64,000 nt of DNA from Rhizobium sp. RU20A (GTDB lineage: Bacteria; Pseudomonadota; Alphaproteobacteria; Rhizobiales; Rhizobiaceae). Below are positions 48,469 through 56,486 of the stretch, one piece after another; position 1 is the first letter of the stretch; each line of letters begins with the position of its first letter. The translations under genes and the position numbers were made by a program. Where the stretch lies: the NCBI RefSeq assembly GCF_900155885.1, contig NZ_FTMB01000005.1:124001-188000 (forward strand). Reading direction: 5' to 3'. The notes beneath the pieces are model-generated. The model ran no database searches, had not been told where the DNA came from, and was given only the letters and a program-made list of their open reading frames with translations.

Positions 48469-49331
48469 TGCGCCGCCTCCGCTCTCTCCAGCGACAGGCG
48501 CGCGCGCCGGCGGGCGGCGAAGAGGCCGTGCTTGGGGGCGAGTGCGAAGGCCGCGAGGAAGATCAGCGTCTGGAGCGCGACGATGACGCCGCCCGTCGCG
48601 CCGTCGAGGAAGTAGCTGAGATACGCACCGGTGACGCTGGTTCCCGCGCCGATCGCAAAAGCGGTGATCAGCAGGCGGCCGAAGCGGTCGGTGAGGAGAT
48701 AGGCGGTGGCGCCGGGCGTGACGACCATGGCCACGACGAGGAAGGCGCCGACCGTCTGCAGGGCTGCGACGGTGGAGGCGGCGAGCAGGGTGAAGAAGAG
48801 CAGCTTCAGGGCCGTGACGTTGAGGCCGATGGTGCGGGCATGGCTCTCGTCGAAGAATGTGACCATCAGGTCCTTCCATTTGAGGCACAGGAGAACCAGG
48901 CTGACGCCGCCGATCAGCACGAGCTGGATCGTATCCTCCGGCGTGATGGCGAGGATGTTGCCGAGCACGATGGTCTGCACATTCACCGATGTCGGTGAGA
49001 GCGAAACCATGAAGAGGCCGAGGCCGAAGAAGGCGGAGAAGATCATGCCGATGATGGCGTCTTCCTTCAGCTTGGTGCGCCGGTTGAGGAAGAGCATGGC
49101 GCCGGCCGCAAGACCGCCGGAGAGAAAGGCGCCGGCCGAGAAGGGAAGGCCCAGCATATAGGCGCCGGCCACGCCGGGCACGATGGCATGGGAGAGCGCG
49201 TCGCCGATCAGTGACCAGCCCTTCAGCATCAGATAGGCCGAGAGGAAGCCGCACACCCCGCCGACGAGGCCGCTGACCCAGATGGCGGTGAACATGTAAT
49301 CGTATTGGAAGGGTTCCAGAAGGATGCTCAT
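48465..49331 (-). CDS. sitC: metal ABC transporter permease (manganese/iron type)
   Basis: A 288-residue ABC-3 permease paralogous to its downstream neighbour, with [35 protein letters not shown] near the N-terminus, [16 protein letters not shown] and [23 protein letters not shown]. It overlaps sitB and sitD by four bases each. The operon order A-B-C-D matches sitABCD of rhizobia, which takes up Mn2+ and to a lesser degree Fe2+. Confidence 0.9.
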
Positions 49332-50236
49332 GGGCGGGGCGCATCCAAGATCTGCGCCTCTGCGGCGCGGGCCGGCGCACCCGTTTTGCCGTCGGAATAG
49401 GTGACGAAGGGGCGCTCGTCGTCGGAAATGACCGTCAGGCGGCGCGGATCCTCGTCCTCGTGCAGGTCGCTGCCCGACAGCACGAAATGGCGCAGCACGC
49501 CGCCGAAGGTCAGCGCCAGGTTTTCATGGGTGAAGGTCTCGGAGGTTGGGCCATGAGCGAGCACGGTGCGGTTGATCAGCACGGTGCGATCGCAGAAATC
49601 GGGAATGGAGCCGAGATTGTGGGTGGAGACCAGCATGACGCGGCCTTCGTCGCGCAGCGCCTTGAGAAGCGCGATGATCTGCTCCTCGGTGGTGACGTCG
49701 ACGCCGGTGAAGGGCTCGTCGAGCAGGATGACCTGACCTTCCTGCGCCAGCGCCCGGGCGAGGAAGACGCGCTTCCTCTGGCCGCCGGAGAGTTCGCCGA
49801 TCTGGCGTTTGCGATAGTCCAGCATGCCGACGCGGGAAAGCGCGCGTTCAACCATTTCCCTGTCGCGGGCCGAGGCGATGCGCAGCCAGTTCATGTGTCC
49901 GTAGCGGCCCATCATCACCACGTCCTCGACCAGAACCGGGAAGTTCCAGTCGACCTCCTCGGCCTGCGGCACATAGGCGACGAGGTTCTTCTTCAGCGCT
50001 TCGGCGACGGGCATGCCGAGCACGGTAACGCCGCCGGCTGCGACCGGCACGAAGCCCATGATCGCCTTGAAGAGGGTTGATTTGCCCGAGCCATTGACGC
50101 CGACGAGAGCGGTGATCGTGCCGCGCGGAATCTCGAAGCTGGCATTGCGCAGCGCCGTGTGGCCGTTGCGATAGGTGACGGTGACGTTTGATGCGGCAAT
50201 GCCGCTTCTATCCCGGCCCTTGCCCATCATCATCAT
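49328..50236 (-). CDS. sitB: metal ABC transporter ATP-binding protein
   Basis: A 302-residue ATPase with Walker A ([16 protein letters not shown]), Q-loop ([16 protein letters not shown], a pattern typical of Mn/Zn/Fe importers), signature [17 protein letters not shown], Walker [13 protein letters not shown] and H-loop STHNLG. The start has four Met codons in a row; the first overlaps the sitA stop (ATGA). The C-terminal 60 residues extend past the usual ATPase core. Confidence 0.92.
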
Positions 50237-51117
50237 TTCGTCAGCCCCTCCACGATCGTGCGCGTCGTCACATCGAGGAGGTCGAGATAGGTCGGCACGG
50301 GACCATCCGCCTCGGAGAGGGAATCGACGTAGAGCACGCCGCCATAGGCCGCTCCCGTCTCGGCCGCCACCTGCTCGGCCGGGGCCGGGGAGACGGTGCT
50401 TTCGGAAAAGACGACGCCGATGCCGTGTTCGCGCACGGCGTCGATGACGGCCTTGACCTGTTTCGGCGTGCCCTGCTGGTCAGCATTGATCGGCCAGAGG
50501 TAAAGCTCCTTGAGGCCGAAATCGCGCGCGAGATAGCTGAACGCGCCCTCGCTCGTCACCAGCCATCGCTTGTCCTGCGGGACGGTCGCCAGCGCAGATT
50601 TCACTTTCTCCCGCAGCGCCTTGATGCGTTCGGAATAGGCGGCGGCATTGGCGGCGTAGGTCGCGGCGTTGGCCGGATCGACCTCTGTCAGCGCCTTGCG
50701 GATATTCTCGACATAGATCAGCGCGTTGTCGGGGGACATCCAGGCATGCGGGTTCGGCTTGCCTTCATAGGGGCCGGCAGCGATGCCCATCGGCTCGACG
50801 CCATCGGTGACGATGACGTTCGGCTTGTCGCCGAGATTGTCGAGGAACTTCTGGAACCAGAGCTCGAGATTGAGGCCGTTCCACAGAACGAGGTCGGCGT
50901 CGGCGGCCTTGAAGATGTCCTGCGGGGTCGGCTGGTAATTGTGGATCTCGGCACCGGGCTTGGTGATGGAAACCACCTCGGCGGCGTCGCCGGCGACATT
51001 GCGCGCCATGTCCGCAATCACGGTAAAGGTGGTGACGACCTTCGGCTTGGCCAGTGCGGCAGGCGCAAAGGCCAGAAGGGCGAGAAGGCAGACGGTCAGG
51101 CGTCGAAGGCCGGTCAT
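50233..51117 (-). CDS. sitA: manganese/iron ABC transporter substrate-binding protein
   Basis: A 294-residue cluster A-I (formerly cluster 9) periplasmic metal-binding protein. It has a signal peptide ([19 protein letters not shown], cut near residue 23), then [17 protein letters not shown]. Metal ligands are visible as [11 protein letters not shown] (first His), [11 protein letters not shown] (second His), the Glu in [17 protein letters not shown] and an Asp near VLYVDSLSE. The absence of a His-rich loop favours Mn/Fe over Zn. ATG at 51117 is preferred; a frame from 51177 would run into the regulatory boxes. Two Mur/Fur-type dyads lie upstream, so manganese-responsive repression is likely. 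Confidence 0.92.
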
Positions 51118-51160: not shown

Positions 51161-51177
51161 TTGCGAATGAGTTGCAT
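51161..51177 (-). promoter_or_regulatory. Mur/Fur-type box, sitA-proximal
   Basis: TTGCGAATGAGTTGCAT, 44 bases before the sitA start, shares TTGCGAATGA with the reverse complement of the distal box. It resembles the manganese-responsive sequences described upstream of rhizobial sitABCD. Its symmetry is weaker than that of the distal box. Confidence 0.55.
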
Positions 51178-51213: not shown

Positions 51214-51230
51214 TTGCAAATCATTCGCAA
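51214..51230. promoter_or_regulatory. Mur/Fur-type box, distal
   Basis: TTGCAAATCATTCGCAA is an 8-1-8 dyad with seven of eight arm bases matched. It lies 97 bases above the sitA start and 169 bases above the divergent His-rich protein gene, so it could act on both promoters. Confidence 0.65.
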
Positions 51231-51398: not shown

Positions 51399-53132
51399 AT
51401 GGCCGGCGTGAAGGCGATCCTGGGCAAGTTCAAATTGCGTCGCAAGACGTTGATCTTGCTGTCGGCTGCCCTTCTCCTGTCGGCGACCTCGGGGGCCGCA
51501 GCGCTTTATATCAGCACGAAATCGGCCCATGAGGAGGCGGTTCGCAAGGAAACCTCCGGCCTCGAATGCACGGCGCTGCGCACCATCCGGCTCGGCCGCA
51601 ACGGCCAGCGCTGGATCCGCAAATATGTTCAGGTGACGAAATCGACCGGCGAGGACCGGCTGCGCACGGCGTTGCGCGTTGCCGGACTTCTGTCGAAGGC
51701 CGAGAAGGCCGATCTCTATCAGGTGGTGGTGCTCGATGCCAGCGGGCCGACGGAGCGCGCGGCGATCCGCGGCGCGGCCATCGGCGCCGAAGTGCTGTTT
51801 GCTCCCGATCCCACCAAGCTGCCGGGCATGGAGCGCCCCTTCGAAGTCGCCTATATCGATGGCGAGGCGAATGCGGCCGGGCTTTACCAGGGCGAGCGCG
51901 TCGTCGTTCCCTTCGAGGATATCGGCAAGGTGATGACCGGCATGGTCGATCACACCGACTGTACGGACCCGCCGCCGGATCCGGCCGCCGAAGCTGCGGA
52001 CGGGCATGGCGAGACCAAGGGCCATGGCGAGAGCAGCGGGCATGGTGAAGCCGCGGCCGACGGGCATGGCGAGGCGAGCGGGCATGGCGAAGCGCCCGCC
52101 GAAGGCCATGGTGAGGCGCCGGCCGGAGACCATGGCGCGCCGGCCGACGGCGAGCATGCCGCCGAAGCTGCGCATGGCGAGGGCGACACGAAGGAAAGCG
52201 GTGGCCTGTTGGCCTCGTTGACCGGCATGATCTTCGGCAGTTCGGAAGAGGCGACCCCGCATGGTGCGCCGGCCGATGGCCATGGCGACGCGCAGAGCGG
52301 TGATGCGCATGGTGCCACGCCGGCCGAGGGCCACGGCACCGATGCCGCCGCGGGGCATGGTGAGGCGCCTGCGGATGCGCATGGTGCGGTGCCGGCCGCA
52401 TCCGGCCATGACGCGCCGGCTGAGAAGCCTGCCGAAGAAGCGAAAGGCTTCTTCTCACCGGTGACGGATTTCCTGTTTGGCGCCGATGAGGCCAAGCCGG
52501 CTGGCGAGACCCACGGTGAGATGCCGGCTGAGGGCCATGCCACCGGCGAAGCGTCAGGCCATGAGACCGCCCCGGAAACGGGTCACGCGGCAGCGCCTGC
52601 GTCCGAGGGGCACGGCGCGCATGGGGATGCGCCGGCCGGGACTGCACCGGACGGCCACGCGCCCGACACCCATGCAAGCGAAGGGCATGCCGCCGAAGGC
52701 CACATGGCGGGAGCAGCCGACCATGCCGCGGCGCCGGCCGGAACGAAGGATGCGGCGGCGGGCGATCACGCTGCCGCAGCAGAACATAAGGCGCCGCCGG
52801 CTGGGGCTCAGGAAGCCGATGCACATGCGGCCCTTGCCGCATCGACCCATGAGACGGCCGCAACAGGTGTCGATGCCGCGGCCCATGGAGCCGAAGGTCA
52901 CCAGACGACGCCGGCGCCGGCGGCCACGAGCGCCCACGACACGACCGCCGGTGAGGCGTCCCATGGCGGTGCCGCCGCCGATGGCGAAACCGCGCCGGCA
53001 GGCTCCCATGAAGCGCCGGCAAAGAAGATCCTGCCGCCGGTCGACGATCACGCAGCTGCCGAGCCGCAGCCGGTGGCGGAGAAGGCGCATGCGCAGCAAG
53101 CCGACGCCCACGGGACGACGGCGGCGCACTGA
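51399..53132 (+). CDS. membrane-anchored histidine-rich protein of unknown function
   Basis: I do not recognise this 577-residue protein. A basic N-terminus and one transmembrane helix (about residues 16-38) place the rest outside the cytoplasm. Residues 45-190 form a compact domain with Cys 57 and a second Cys near 188 (DHTDCTDPPP). From about residue 195 to the end it is low-complexity, rich in Ala, Gly, Glu, Asp and Pro, with about 40 His, mostly in Asp/Glu/Ser-Gly-His-Gly-Glu units. Two short hydrophobic islands interrupt it: GLLASLTGMIFGSSEEA (about residue 270) and GFFSPVTDFLFGADEA (about residue 350). It is divergent from sitABCD with Mur/Fur-type boxes between. Metal buffering or delivery in the periplasm is the simplest idea, unproven. 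Confidence 0.75.
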   Translation: MAGVKAILGKFKLRRKTLILLSAALLLSATSGAAALYISTKSAHEEAVRKETSGLECTALRTIRLGRNGQRWIRKYVQVTKSTGEDRLRTALRVAGLLSKAEKADLYQVVVLDASGPTERAAIRGAAIGAEVLFAPDPTKLPGMERPFEVAYIDGEANAAGLYQGERVVVPFEDIGKVMTGMVDHTDCTDPPPDPAAEAADGHGETKGHGESSGHGEAAADGHGEASGHGEAPAEGHGEAPAGDHGAPADGEHAAEAAHGEGDTKESGGLLASLTGMIFGSSEEATPHGAPADGHGDAQSGDAHGATPAEGHGTDAAAGHGEAPADAHGAVPAASGHDAPAEKPAEEAKGFFSPVTDFLFGADEAKPAGETHGEMPAEGHATGEASGHETAPETGHAAAPASEGHGAHGDAPAGTAPDGHAPDTHASEGHAAEGHMAGAADHAAAPAGTKDAAAGDHAAAAEHKAPPAGAQEADAHAALAASTHETAATGVDAAAHGAEGHQTTPAPAATSAHDTTAGEASHGGAAADGETAPAGSHEAPAKKILPPVDDHAAAEPQPVAEKAHAQQADAHGTTAAH

Positions 53133-53312: not shown

Positions 53313-54809
53313 TCAATCCGCCTTGTTGCGGCGGGCCGGGAAGAGGATCACGTCGCGGATCGACGGGGCGTTGGTGAGCAGCATGATCAGGCGATCGACG
53401 CCGATGCCGAGGCCGCCGGCGGGCGGCATGCCCTGGTCGATGGCATCGAGGAACTCGTCGTCCAGCTGCTTGTCCTTCTCGCCGCGGGCATGGGCCTGCT
53501 CCAGCTGCTCGACCATGCGGGCGCGCTGCTCGACGGGGTCGTTGAGCTCGGAGAAGGCGTTGCCGACTTCCCAGGCGTTGCAATAGGTCTCGAAGCGCTC
53601 GACGAGGCGCGGCTCGCCCGGCACTTCCTTGGCGAAGGGCGAGATGTCCTTCGGGAAATGCGTGACGTGGGACGGCTGGATGAGCGTGCCCTCGACCTTT
53701 TCCTCGAAGATGAAGGCGAGGCATTCGCCCCAGGTCCAGTCCTTCTCGACCTCAAAGCCGGCGGCCTTTGCAGCGGCGCGGGCTTCCTCGTCGGTCTTGA
53801 TTGCGAGGAAGTCGATGCCGGTGGCTTCCTTGACGGCATCGGGCATCGGCACGCGGCGGAAGGGGCCGGCAAACGAGATGGTCTTGTCGCCGTAGACGAC
53901 GTCGGTCGAGCCGTGGATCTTCACCGCGAGATCGGCGAAGAGGCGTTCCACGAGGTCCATGACGTCCTCGTAGTCGGCATAGGCCCAGTAGCACTCCATC
54001 ATCGTGAATTCCGGATTGTGCCGGGTGGAGACGCCTTCGTTGCGGAAGTTGCGGTTGATCTCGAAGACCTTGTCGGAGAGACCGGAGACCAGCGTGCGCT
54101 TCAGGAAGAGTTCCGGCGCGATGCGCAGGTACATGTCCATCTTCAGCGTGTTGTGGAAGGTCTTGAAGGGATCGGCGGTGGCGCCGCCATAGACCGTCTG
54201 GAGCATGGGCGTCTCGACCTCCAGGAACCCGTCGGTCTCCATGAAACGGCGCAGCGCGGAGATGATCTTCGAGCGCTGCAGGAAGCGCAGCTTGGATTCC
54301 TCGTTGGTCATGATGTCGAGGTGACGCTTGCGGTAGCGGATCTCGACGTCGGAGACGCCATGCCACTTCTCGGGCATCGGCAGCAGCGCCTTGGTGAGCA
54401 TGGTGATCTCGTGCGCGTTGATCGTCAGCTCGCCGCGCTTGGTGCGGCGCACGGCGCCGGTGACGCCGATGATGTCGCCGAGATCGATCATCGGCAGCAG
54501 GGCGCGGGCCGCCTCCGGCGTCGTGTCCTTGTGGGAGAAGATCTGGATCTTTCCGGCGGCGTCATGGATATCCATGAACATGCCGGAATTGCGCGACGAA
54601 TAGACCCGGCCGGCGACGGTGACGATGTCGCCCGTCTCGGTGTCGGGCTCGAGGCCGGCATATTTCTCGGCCAACTCGCCATTGGTCAGCGTGCGGTGGA
54701 AGTGGGCCGGATAGACATCGCCGATCTGCTGGCGCAGCAGGTCGAGCTTCTGGCGGCGGACTTCCGTCACGTCGGAGGAAAGGGCGGTCTCGGTTTTCGT
54801 TTCGGTCAT
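53313..54809 (-). CDS. lysS: lysyl-tRNA synthetase, class II
   Basis: LysS charges tRNA-Lys. From ATG 54809 the protein has 498 residues. The N-terminal OB-fold anticodon domain is at about residues 55-155 (VTVAGRVYSSRNSGMFMDIHD). The class II core has motif 1 (FMETDGFLEVETPMLQ), motif 2 (FEINRNFRNEGVSTRHNPEFTMMECY) and motif 3 (GLGIGVDRLIMLLTN). The upstream in-frame extension contains a palindromic repeat and is rejected. It lies downstream of gltX on the same strand, separated by 213 bases that hold a repeat. Confidence 0.96.
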   Translation of the reverse strand: MTETKTETALSSDVTEVRRQKLDLLRQQIGDVYPAHFHRTLTNGELAEKYAGLEPDTETGDIVTVAGRVYSSRNSGMFMDIHDAAGKIQIFSHKDTTPEAARALLPMIDLGDIIGVTGAVRRTKRGELTINAHEITMLTKALLPMPEKWHGVSDVEIRYRKRHLDIMTNEESKLRFLQRSKIISALRRFMETDGFLEVETPMLQTVYGGATADPFKTFHNTLKMDMYLRIAPELFLKRTLVSGLSDKVFEINRNFRNEGVSTRHNPEFTMMECYWAYADYEDVMDLVERLFADLAVKIHGSTDVVYGDKTISFAGPFRRVPMPDAVKEATGIDFLAIKTDEEARAAAKAAGFEVEKDWTWGECLAFIFEEKVEGTLIQPSHVTHFPKDISPFAKEVPGEPRLVERFETYCNAWEVGNAFSELNDPVEQRARMVEQLEQAHARGEKDKQLDDEFLDAIDQGMPPAGGLGIGVDRLIMLLTNAPSIRDVILFPARRNKAD

Positions 54810-54885
54810 GGTGTTCGCCTTTTTGGGCACGTTGTTCTGTTGGCCGGGCGGGAGCCTTTTGAGGCACGCGCACCTTTCCGTCTCC

Positions 54886-54987
54886 GTCATCCTCGGGCTT
54901 GACCCGAGGATCCATTTGTCATGTGCCTGCATGCCCTGTGCGCCCACTGCCTGCGGCATGGATCCTCGGGTCAAGCCCGAGGATGAC
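54886..54987. repeat. composite palindromic repeat, copy 2
   Basis: CCTCGGGCTTGACCCGAGG (within 54889-54911) and its reverse-orientation partner CCTCGGGTCAAGCCCGAGG (within 54962-54984) lie in the gltX-lysS gap, bounded by GTCAT and ATGAC like the copy at 45095-45177. The two units are 50 bases apart here and 31 in copy 1. Confidence 0.7.
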
Positions 54988-55022
54988 GGGCGGCGAGAGG
55001 CTGCAACAATCGCAGGTCCGTC

Positions 55023-56486
55023 TTACTTTCCGCTGCCCGCCATGGACGCCACCACCTGACCGGCGACCTTGAGGCGCTGGCGCACGACGGAGCGGCCGAG
55101 CACGGCCATGGAGTCGAAGAGCGGCAGCGAGCGCGACGAGCCGGAGACGGCAACGAAAAGCGGCGCGACGACGACCTTCAGCTTCTTGCCGAGGCGGTCG
55201 GCGACGGCGCGCAGCTCGGCCTCGATCGAGGCGACGTCCCACTCGACGATCTTTTCGAGGGAGGGCTGCACCTCGTTGAAGATCTCGACCAGTTCTTCCG
55301 GCGAGGACTTAACCTTGGCAAAATGGGCGGGTTCCAGGCCGAGGTCGGATTTCAGCAGGAAGCCGGCGAGATCGGGCAGTTCGCCGAGCTTGGAAATGCG
55401 CGACTGCGAGAGCTTCAGGCCCTCCGTCAGGCGGCTGTTTTCCATCGCCCACTCGATGACGCGGCGGCGGAAGTCCTCATCCGACAGCTTTTCGCGAATC
55501 CAGCGACCGTTCAGCCAGTCGAGCTTCTGGATGTCGAAGATGGCGCCGGCCTTGGAGAGGTTTTCCGGGTCGAACTTGGCGGCCAGCTCGTCCATGGTCA
55601 GCAGTTCCTCGCCCTCCGCGATCTGGATGAAGAACAGGCCGAGGAAGTTCATCAGCGCTTCCGGCAGGTAGCCGAGCGCGGAATAGTAGGAGATCGAGGT
55701 CGGGTTCTTGCGCTTCGACAGCTTCGACTTGTCGGCATTGCGCATCAGGGAAAGATGCATGAAGACCGGCGGCTCGAGGCCGAGATAGCGATAGATGAGA
55801 ATGTGCTTCGGCACCGAGGCCAGCCACTCCTCGCCGCGCGCGACGTGGGTGATCTTCATCAGGTGGTCGTCGACCACATTCGCCATGTGGTAGGTCGGCA
55901 TGCCGTCCGCCTTCAGCAGAACCTGCATGTCCACGGCATCCCACGGGATTTCCACTTCGCCGTAAACGCCGTCCACGAACTTGCAGGCGCCTTCTGTCGG
56001 GATCTTCATACGCACGACATGGGGCTCGCCGCTGGCGACGCGGGTGGTGACTTCTTCCGCCGAGAGCGAGAGGCACAGCCCGTCATATTTCGGCGGCTTG
56101 CCAGCGGCACGCTGTCCTTCGCGCATCTTTTCGAGGCGCTCGGGCGTGCAGAAGCAGCGGAAGCCGTGGCCGGCCTCAACGATCTTCTCCACATAGGGGC
56201 GGTAGATGTCCTTGCGGTCGGACTGGCGGTAGGGGCCGTAGGGGCCGCCGATATCCGGGCCTTCGGACCATTCGAGGCCACACCATTTCAGCGCATCCAG
56301 CACCTTGCGCTCGAATTCCGGCGTGGAGCGGGTCGCGTCCGTATCCTCGATGCGCAGGATGAAGGTGCCGTTGTTCTTTTTCGCAAAGAGATAGTTGAAG
56401 AGCGCGATATAGGCGGTGCCGACATGGGGTTCGCCGGTCGGCGAAGGGGCGATGCGGACGCGCACGGGGGCGGCGGGGCTGGTCAT
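55023..56486 (-). CDS. gltX: glutamyl-tRNA synthetase
   Basis: GltX charges tRNA-Glu (and in many alphaproteobacteria also tRNA-Gln before amidation). From ATG 56486 the protein has 487 residues. Class I marks are IAPSPTGEPHVGTAYIALFNYLFA (HIGH-type motif HVGT), the RIEDTDATRSTPEFE stretch and the KMSKS-type loop KLSKRKNPTS (about residue 255). The C-terminal part is the helical anticodon-binding domain. An upstream frame of 21 codons is rejected because the family starts near this Met. Whether it is the discriminating or non-discriminating form is not clear. Confidence 0.95.
   Translation of the reverse strand: MTSPAAPVRVRIAPSPTGEPHVGTAYIALFNYLFAKKNNGTFILRIEDTDATRSTPEFERKVLDALKWCGLEWSEGPDIGGPYGPYRQSDRKDIYRPYVEKIVEAGHGFRCFCTPERLEKMREGQRAAGKPPKYDGLCLSLSAEEVTTRVASGEPHVVRMKIPTEGACKFVDGVYGEVEIPWDAVDMQVLLKADGMPTYHMANVVDDHLMKITHVARGEEWLASVPKHILIYRYLGLEPPVFMHLSLMRNADKSKLSKRKNPTSISYYSALGYLPEALMNFLGLFFIQIAEGEELLTMDELAAKFDPENLSKAGAIFDIQKLDWLNGRWIREKLSDEDFRRRVIEWAMENSRLTEGLKLSQSRISKLGELPDLAGFLLKSDLGLEPAHFAKVKSSPEELVEIFNEVQPSLEKIVEWDVASIEAELRAVADRLGKKLKVVVAPLFVAVSGSSRSLPLFDSMAVLGRSVVRQRLKVAGQVVASMAGSGK

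Follow-up and report, generated by a model that had tools for sequence, protein, structure and literature searches.

A membrane-anchored protein family of the Rhizobiaceae with a DUF4875-like domain and a histidine-rich tail of variable length

Flexible histidine-rich loops are found in ZnuA-type binding proteins and in CDF and ZIP transporters, where the histidines typically stand in HxH or HH clusters. Squid beak proteins are histidine-rich too; they coacervate and carry spaced GHG-type repeats. Here we describe a gene in a window of 64,000 nucleotides from Rhizobium sp. RU20A (the window being the whole stretch analysed), whose product ends in a long histidine-rich tail. Like the loops of metal transporters, this tail is rich in His and flexible, but its family lacks HxH. 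Its histidines are isolated and regularly spaced between Gly-rich spacers, as in squid beak-type proteins; there is no homology to these. The features of the locus are collected in Table 1.

Table 1. Features of the locus, in window coordinates
Feature	Position	Strand	Basis
Gene for a 577-aa membrane-anchored His-rich protein	51399..53132	+	ORF; homologues in family genomes
Membrane anchor, about residues 17-37	51447..51509	+	sequence; helix in structure models
DUF4875-like domain, about residues 45-190	51531..51968	+	alignment, fold, Pfam match of member L075
Predicted disordered His/Gly/Ala/Glu/Pro tail, residues 192-577, 40 His	51972..53129	+	composition, spacing counts, full-length model
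Hydrophobic island 1, GGLLASLTGMIFGS, residues 268-281	52200..52241	+	motif count; helix 269-278 in model
Hydrophobic island 2, KGFFSPVTDFLFGA, residues 349-362	52443..52484	+	motif count
Own conserved upstream element TTAAGCATTCGGAAA	51323..51337	+	pattern across loci; strict form unique in own genome
Mur-type box TTGCAAATCATTCGCAA, 17/17 to core, assigned to sitA	51214..51230		motif match
Second Mur-type box TTGCGAATGAGTTGCAT, 15/17, assigned to sitA	51161..51177		motif match
sitA, substrate-binding protein of Mn/Fe importer, likely start 51117	50233..51117	-	ZnuA family, E 1.3e-90
sitB, ATP-binding subunit	49328..50236	-	NF011630 Mn/Fe ABC transporter ATPase, above cut-off
lysS, convergent, constant neighbour	53313..54809	-	locus comparison
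gltX, adjoins lysS	55023..56486	-	locus comparison

The protein and its folded domain

The gene is real and encodes a tethered, previously undescribed protein of the Rhizobiaceae inner membrane, with 42 His in all according to the reading frame. Using its first 196 residues as query, homologues were found in 117 of the 395 genomes of the family, in 26 of 109 genera. A 67-sequence profile gave no match outside the same family in a sample of the order (297 genomes), and its sole match in a sample of the class (289 genomes) was the window's own genome. Named relatives belong to Ensifer, Sinorhizobium, Rhizobium and Shinella; the homologue of S. meliloti Ak57 is a 206-aa "hypothetical protein" flanked by a nucleoside hydrolase gene and lysS. 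One further homologue (L077, G070:C45:28045-28626) contains an in-frame TAA and is probably a broken copy.

A positive stretch, KFKLRRK, precedes the only hydrophobic N-terminal helix, in agreement with the single membrane anchor of the preliminary description. By the positive-inside rule this suggests an N-in, C-out topology, the rest of the protein being periplasmic. The earlier label of surface protein is thus replaced by that of a predicted inner-membrane-anchored, periplasmic one.

The compact domain expected after the anchor was modelled confidently: AlphaFold2, run with 67 aligned sequences, gave pLDDT >90 over approximately residues 51-180, a folded unit of about 130 residues. Eight residues are invariant in the alignment (C57, R87, L106, P117, R120, G161, G165 and C188), and C57 and C188 probably form a disulphide. 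No invariant His/Asp/Glu set suggestive of a metal site was found in the aligned domain.

Searches of Pfam and NCBIfam with the window protein returned nothing above noise, and a profile search of PDB sequences gave no convincing match. The fold was more informative. The best match is PDB 4lg3 (DESPIG_00776 of Desulfovibrio piger), which shares the fold at 11% identity, with Z 12.7 and rmsd 2.9 over 122 residues (runner-up, Z 7.4) and a Foldseek E of 3.4e-4. The title of this entry is truncated to 'DUF487 family'; our reading is that it is a DUF4875 protein. In Pfam, the homologue L075 scores above the DUF4875 (PF16175) cut-off, with 26.5 bits against 25, and in its genus this gene is the best DUF4875 match in all seven genomes, mostly below cut-off, although the window protein itself has no Pfam DUF4875 match. 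On the 4lg3 fold match and, independently, the L075 Pfam match, we assign the domain to the fold group of DUF4875. To our knowledge, no long His-rich tail is known in DUF4875 or 4lg3.

Other candidates were discarded. BtpiA immunity protein (Z 7.4) and the MamM C-terminal domain (Z 5-6) lie below the tool's level for a meaningful match, and weak profile matches to FliL and TraB (best E 0.0025 and 0.14) were attributed to the membrane helix. A search of a viral structure library gave nothing under E 0.001. We found no papers on DUF4875, DESPIG_00776 or the presumed locus tag SMc03174.

A tail of isolated histidines and hydrophobic islands

The preliminary description had reported a tail of nearly 400 residues broken by two matching hydrophobic islands, and both observations hold: the tail has 386 residues, 10.4% of them His, with ten GHG and nine HGE units, and its two islands follow one common motif. 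Throughout the family, tail length ranges from 6 to about 390 residues and tail His from 0 to 40. In the nearest relatives of the window protein, from Ensifer/Sinorhizobium, the tail is 13-31 residues long and contains 0-3 His, and sit genes are absent; we therefore regard the long tail of the window protein as an expansion in its own lineage. Long tails arose in separate branches of the maximum-likelihood tree of the domain. Tail His count does not clearly differ between sit-adjacent loci (median 7.5) and sit-less ones (median 3; Mann-Whitney p 0.07, kinship ignored). As judged from these comparisons, the tail evolves fast in both length and His content, and does so irrespective of sitABCD. 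The DNA of the tail contains tandem repeats of 18-42 nt.

In a full-length model built with seven sequences the tail has a pLDDT of about 30-50, except for island 1, which is modelled weakly (pLDDT about 56) as a short helix, and helicity appears at one island only. Low pLDDT and the presence of the island motif in repeat copies indicate a tail that is predicted to be disordered and multivalent. Island matches number 62 in the family against 9.8 in shuffled tails (related sequences are included in this count and in the His-spacing and terminal-His counts below). The motif, roughly G-hydrophobic-hydrophobic-x-S-x-x-x-M-[IV]-x-G, is common to many genera and is kept even in genus g12, although His is absent from three of its four tails. 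Islands are missing from some short tails, of 6-31 residues.

His-His spacings of 1, 2, 3 and 4 were seen 2, 0, 3 and 10 times, with about 53 of each expected from shuffled tails, adding up to 15 against some 212, and spacings of 6-8 are enriched. Among the approximately 700 tail histidines of the aligned family there is no HxH and HH occurs twice. On these spacing counts, the pattern is that of stickers and spacers rather than of chelating clusters. The last residue is His in 52 of 72 proteins, with a mean tail His content of 6.9%; the terminal His (53127-53129 in the window) is also present in His-poor tails.

Genomic context and regulation

We compared 76 loci, with a few duplicates among them, and scored 73 of them, window included, for sit adjacency. 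At all 76 but four, namely L067 (a plasmid-like paralogue), L080 (a contig end), L073 and L087, the next genes downstream are a convergent lysS and then gltX. We read this tail-to-tail linkage as plain synteny. Between lysS and gltX, at 54885-54990 of the window, there is an inverted repeat of the CCTCGGGCTTGACCCGAGGATCC type, which we take to resemble palindromic repeats known from rhizobia.

On the other side, sitABCD is found upstream at 22 of the 73 loci and is absent beside the remaining 51. All sampled loci are sit-adjacent in ten genera, some are in two and none in fourteen, and the most divergent lineages (g12, g13 and g70) never are. On the maximum-likelihood domain tree, sit adjacency changes seven times, at least three changes being forced by well-supported branches. 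In the window, sitA is a divergent neighbour outside the transcription unit of the His-rich gene, and its signal peptide makes 51117, not 51177, its likely start.

The intergenic region does contain the Mur/Fur-type boxes noted earlier next to the divergent sitABCD, as two palindromes. Their distance from the likely sitA start is 44-113 nt, and from the start of the His-rich gene at least some 170 nt. The Mur-type core TTGCNAATNATTNGCAA occurs at 15/17 or better in every one of the 22 sit-adjacent loci, and at a single sit-less one, L079, where the box is intact and a 53-residue remnant of sitA (58% identity) is found approximately 90-250 nt upstream of the homologue. The remnant suggests that the sit operon was lost at L079 while the His-rich gene stayed. 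An ORF for an ArsA-like ATPase lies beyond the remnant, the operon having apparently been lost and replaced. Since the boxes are present in all sit loci and otherwise only at the remnant-bearing one, they belong to sitA; as far as motif comparison can tell, they track sitA, and Mur control of the His-rich gene itself is not supported. In R. leguminosarum, sitABCD and mntH are under Mur control (PMC5575495).

The His-rich gene has a conserved upstream element of its own. Of 71 loci, 57 carry its pattern, TTAANNNTT[ACT][CGT][GT][CTA]AA, compared with 4 of 1360 random windows, and it is found both with sit (20 of 21 loci) and without it (37 of 50). No clear regulon emerged from the element: its strict form has a single match in the genome and a relaxed form has 13, against 5 for the reversed control. 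Its likeness to a CtrA site (TTAA-N7-TTAA) is no more than a lead.

A branch of paralogues is carried on plasmids of Rhizobium sp. WL3, Rhizobium sp. X9, A. pusense SX41, P. flavum YW14 and Rhizobium sp. Khangiran2. The paralogue WP_147884719.1 (Rhizobium sp. WL3), recovered by tblastn when the domain of the window protein was the query (37% over 132 residues), and its relatives have anchor and domain as in the window protein, but the tail of WP_147884719.1 is short and without His, and its context is one of metal and cell-wall genes. Four of the five plasmid records have an annotated Nramp gene no more than 2 kb from the paralogue. In those four, Nramp is preceded at some 50 nt by a Mur-type box (15-16/17), and a similar box occurs in the fifth record. 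Some records have genes for a metal P-type ATPase, PCu(A)C, a cell-wall hydrolase, DUF882 and an L,D-transpeptidase nearby. The five loci, L121-L125, have the look of a plasmid module that joins Nramp with its Mur-type box, the P-type ATPase and PCu(A)C to a cell-wall part, which also includes lspA or lnt. A second paralogue, L067, lies near genes for CDF efflux, a DsbA-like protein, LspA, an L,D-transpeptidase and a multicopper oxidase. The association of paralogues with metal genes goes back to no more than one or two events in evolution, and envelope genes are found in these clusters too. Given this context, the domain, rather than the tail, may have a metal or envelope-stress role.

Possible functions

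The role proposed in the preliminary description, a metal chaperone or buffer working specifically with SitA and Mur-co-regulated with sitABCD, is suggested by the divergent arrangement with two Mur boxes in the window and by the 21 other sit-adjacent loci. We consider it very improbable. Most loci have no adjoining sit, lysS being the constant neighbour; the boxes, far from the start of the gene, disappear along with sit except beside the L079 remnant; the gene's own element is kept where they are missing; and tail His count does not clearly differ with sit adjacency. The Mn importer is an occasional neighbour, and a partnership with the His-rich protein is unlikely. The homologues do not consistently lack His-rich tails and metal-gene neighbours: many are His-tailed and the plasmid paralogues sit among metal genes, sit being only occasional.

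We tentatively favour an inner-membrane-anchored periplasmic scaffold or tether protein, independent of the neighbouring Mn importer. The domain would dock on a conserved envelope partner, and the tail would project into the periplasm, presenting one to three copies of the short amphipathic or hydrophobic island motif, which might contact the membrane or a protein partner. The evenly spaced, isolated histidines between islands would provide soluble spacers; the charge of these would shift with pH, as perhaps would a weak affinity for metals. The proposal draws on the well-predicted domain with its invariant cysteine pair, the predicted disorder of the tail, the island motif shared among genera, the spacing of the histidines, the separate origins of long tails and the upstream element that belongs to the gene itself. 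As island-less tails of 6-31 residues exist, the scaffold part must be dispensable in some genera. Against this proposal, His spacing could result from repeat expansion alone, and the plasmid paralogues sit among metal genes. The main rival is a protein that would buffer metal in the periplasm or act in metal stress (Zn, Cu, Ni or Mn), its tail being a sponge of low affinity with no particular tie to SitA, a reading we consider unlikely though second in our order of preference. The 40 His of the window tail and the hundreds in those of the aligned family speak for it, as do the predominance of His as last residue and the paralogues near Mur-boxed Nramp, heavy-metal P-type ATPase, PCu(A)C, RND or CDF efflux and multicopper oxidase genes. 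Yet the 67-sequence alignment of the domain has no invariant metal ligands other than the two cysteines, HxH is missing and HH almost so, translated plasmid paralogue(s) beside metal genes have no His tail, and some lineages have almost no His.

It is more doubtful that the domain alone matters, the tail being a low-complexity extension under loose constraint that lengthens and shortens by repeat slippage. The wide range of tail length and His number inside one family and the tandem repeats would be so explained, but not the maintenance of one island motif across genera, the strong family-wide avoidance of close His pairs or the His that ends most proteins. Among these predicted roles we thus rank the scaffold ahead of the general metal buffer, the low-function tail and, far behind, the SitA partner. 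Under the scaffold proposal, it is tempting, if improbable, to propose that the conserved grammar of the tail (isolated His spacers, island motif, terminal His) gives rise to a pH- or metal-responsive periplasmic condensate or a tether between inner membrane and a further layer of the envelope.

In summary, an unannotated Rhizobiaceae family is now given boundaries, and an attractive link to Mn import, for which support is poor, is set aside. With 0 to 40 tail histidines on one domain, the family is a natural series in which the role of His-rich disorder in the bacterial envelope becomes testable.
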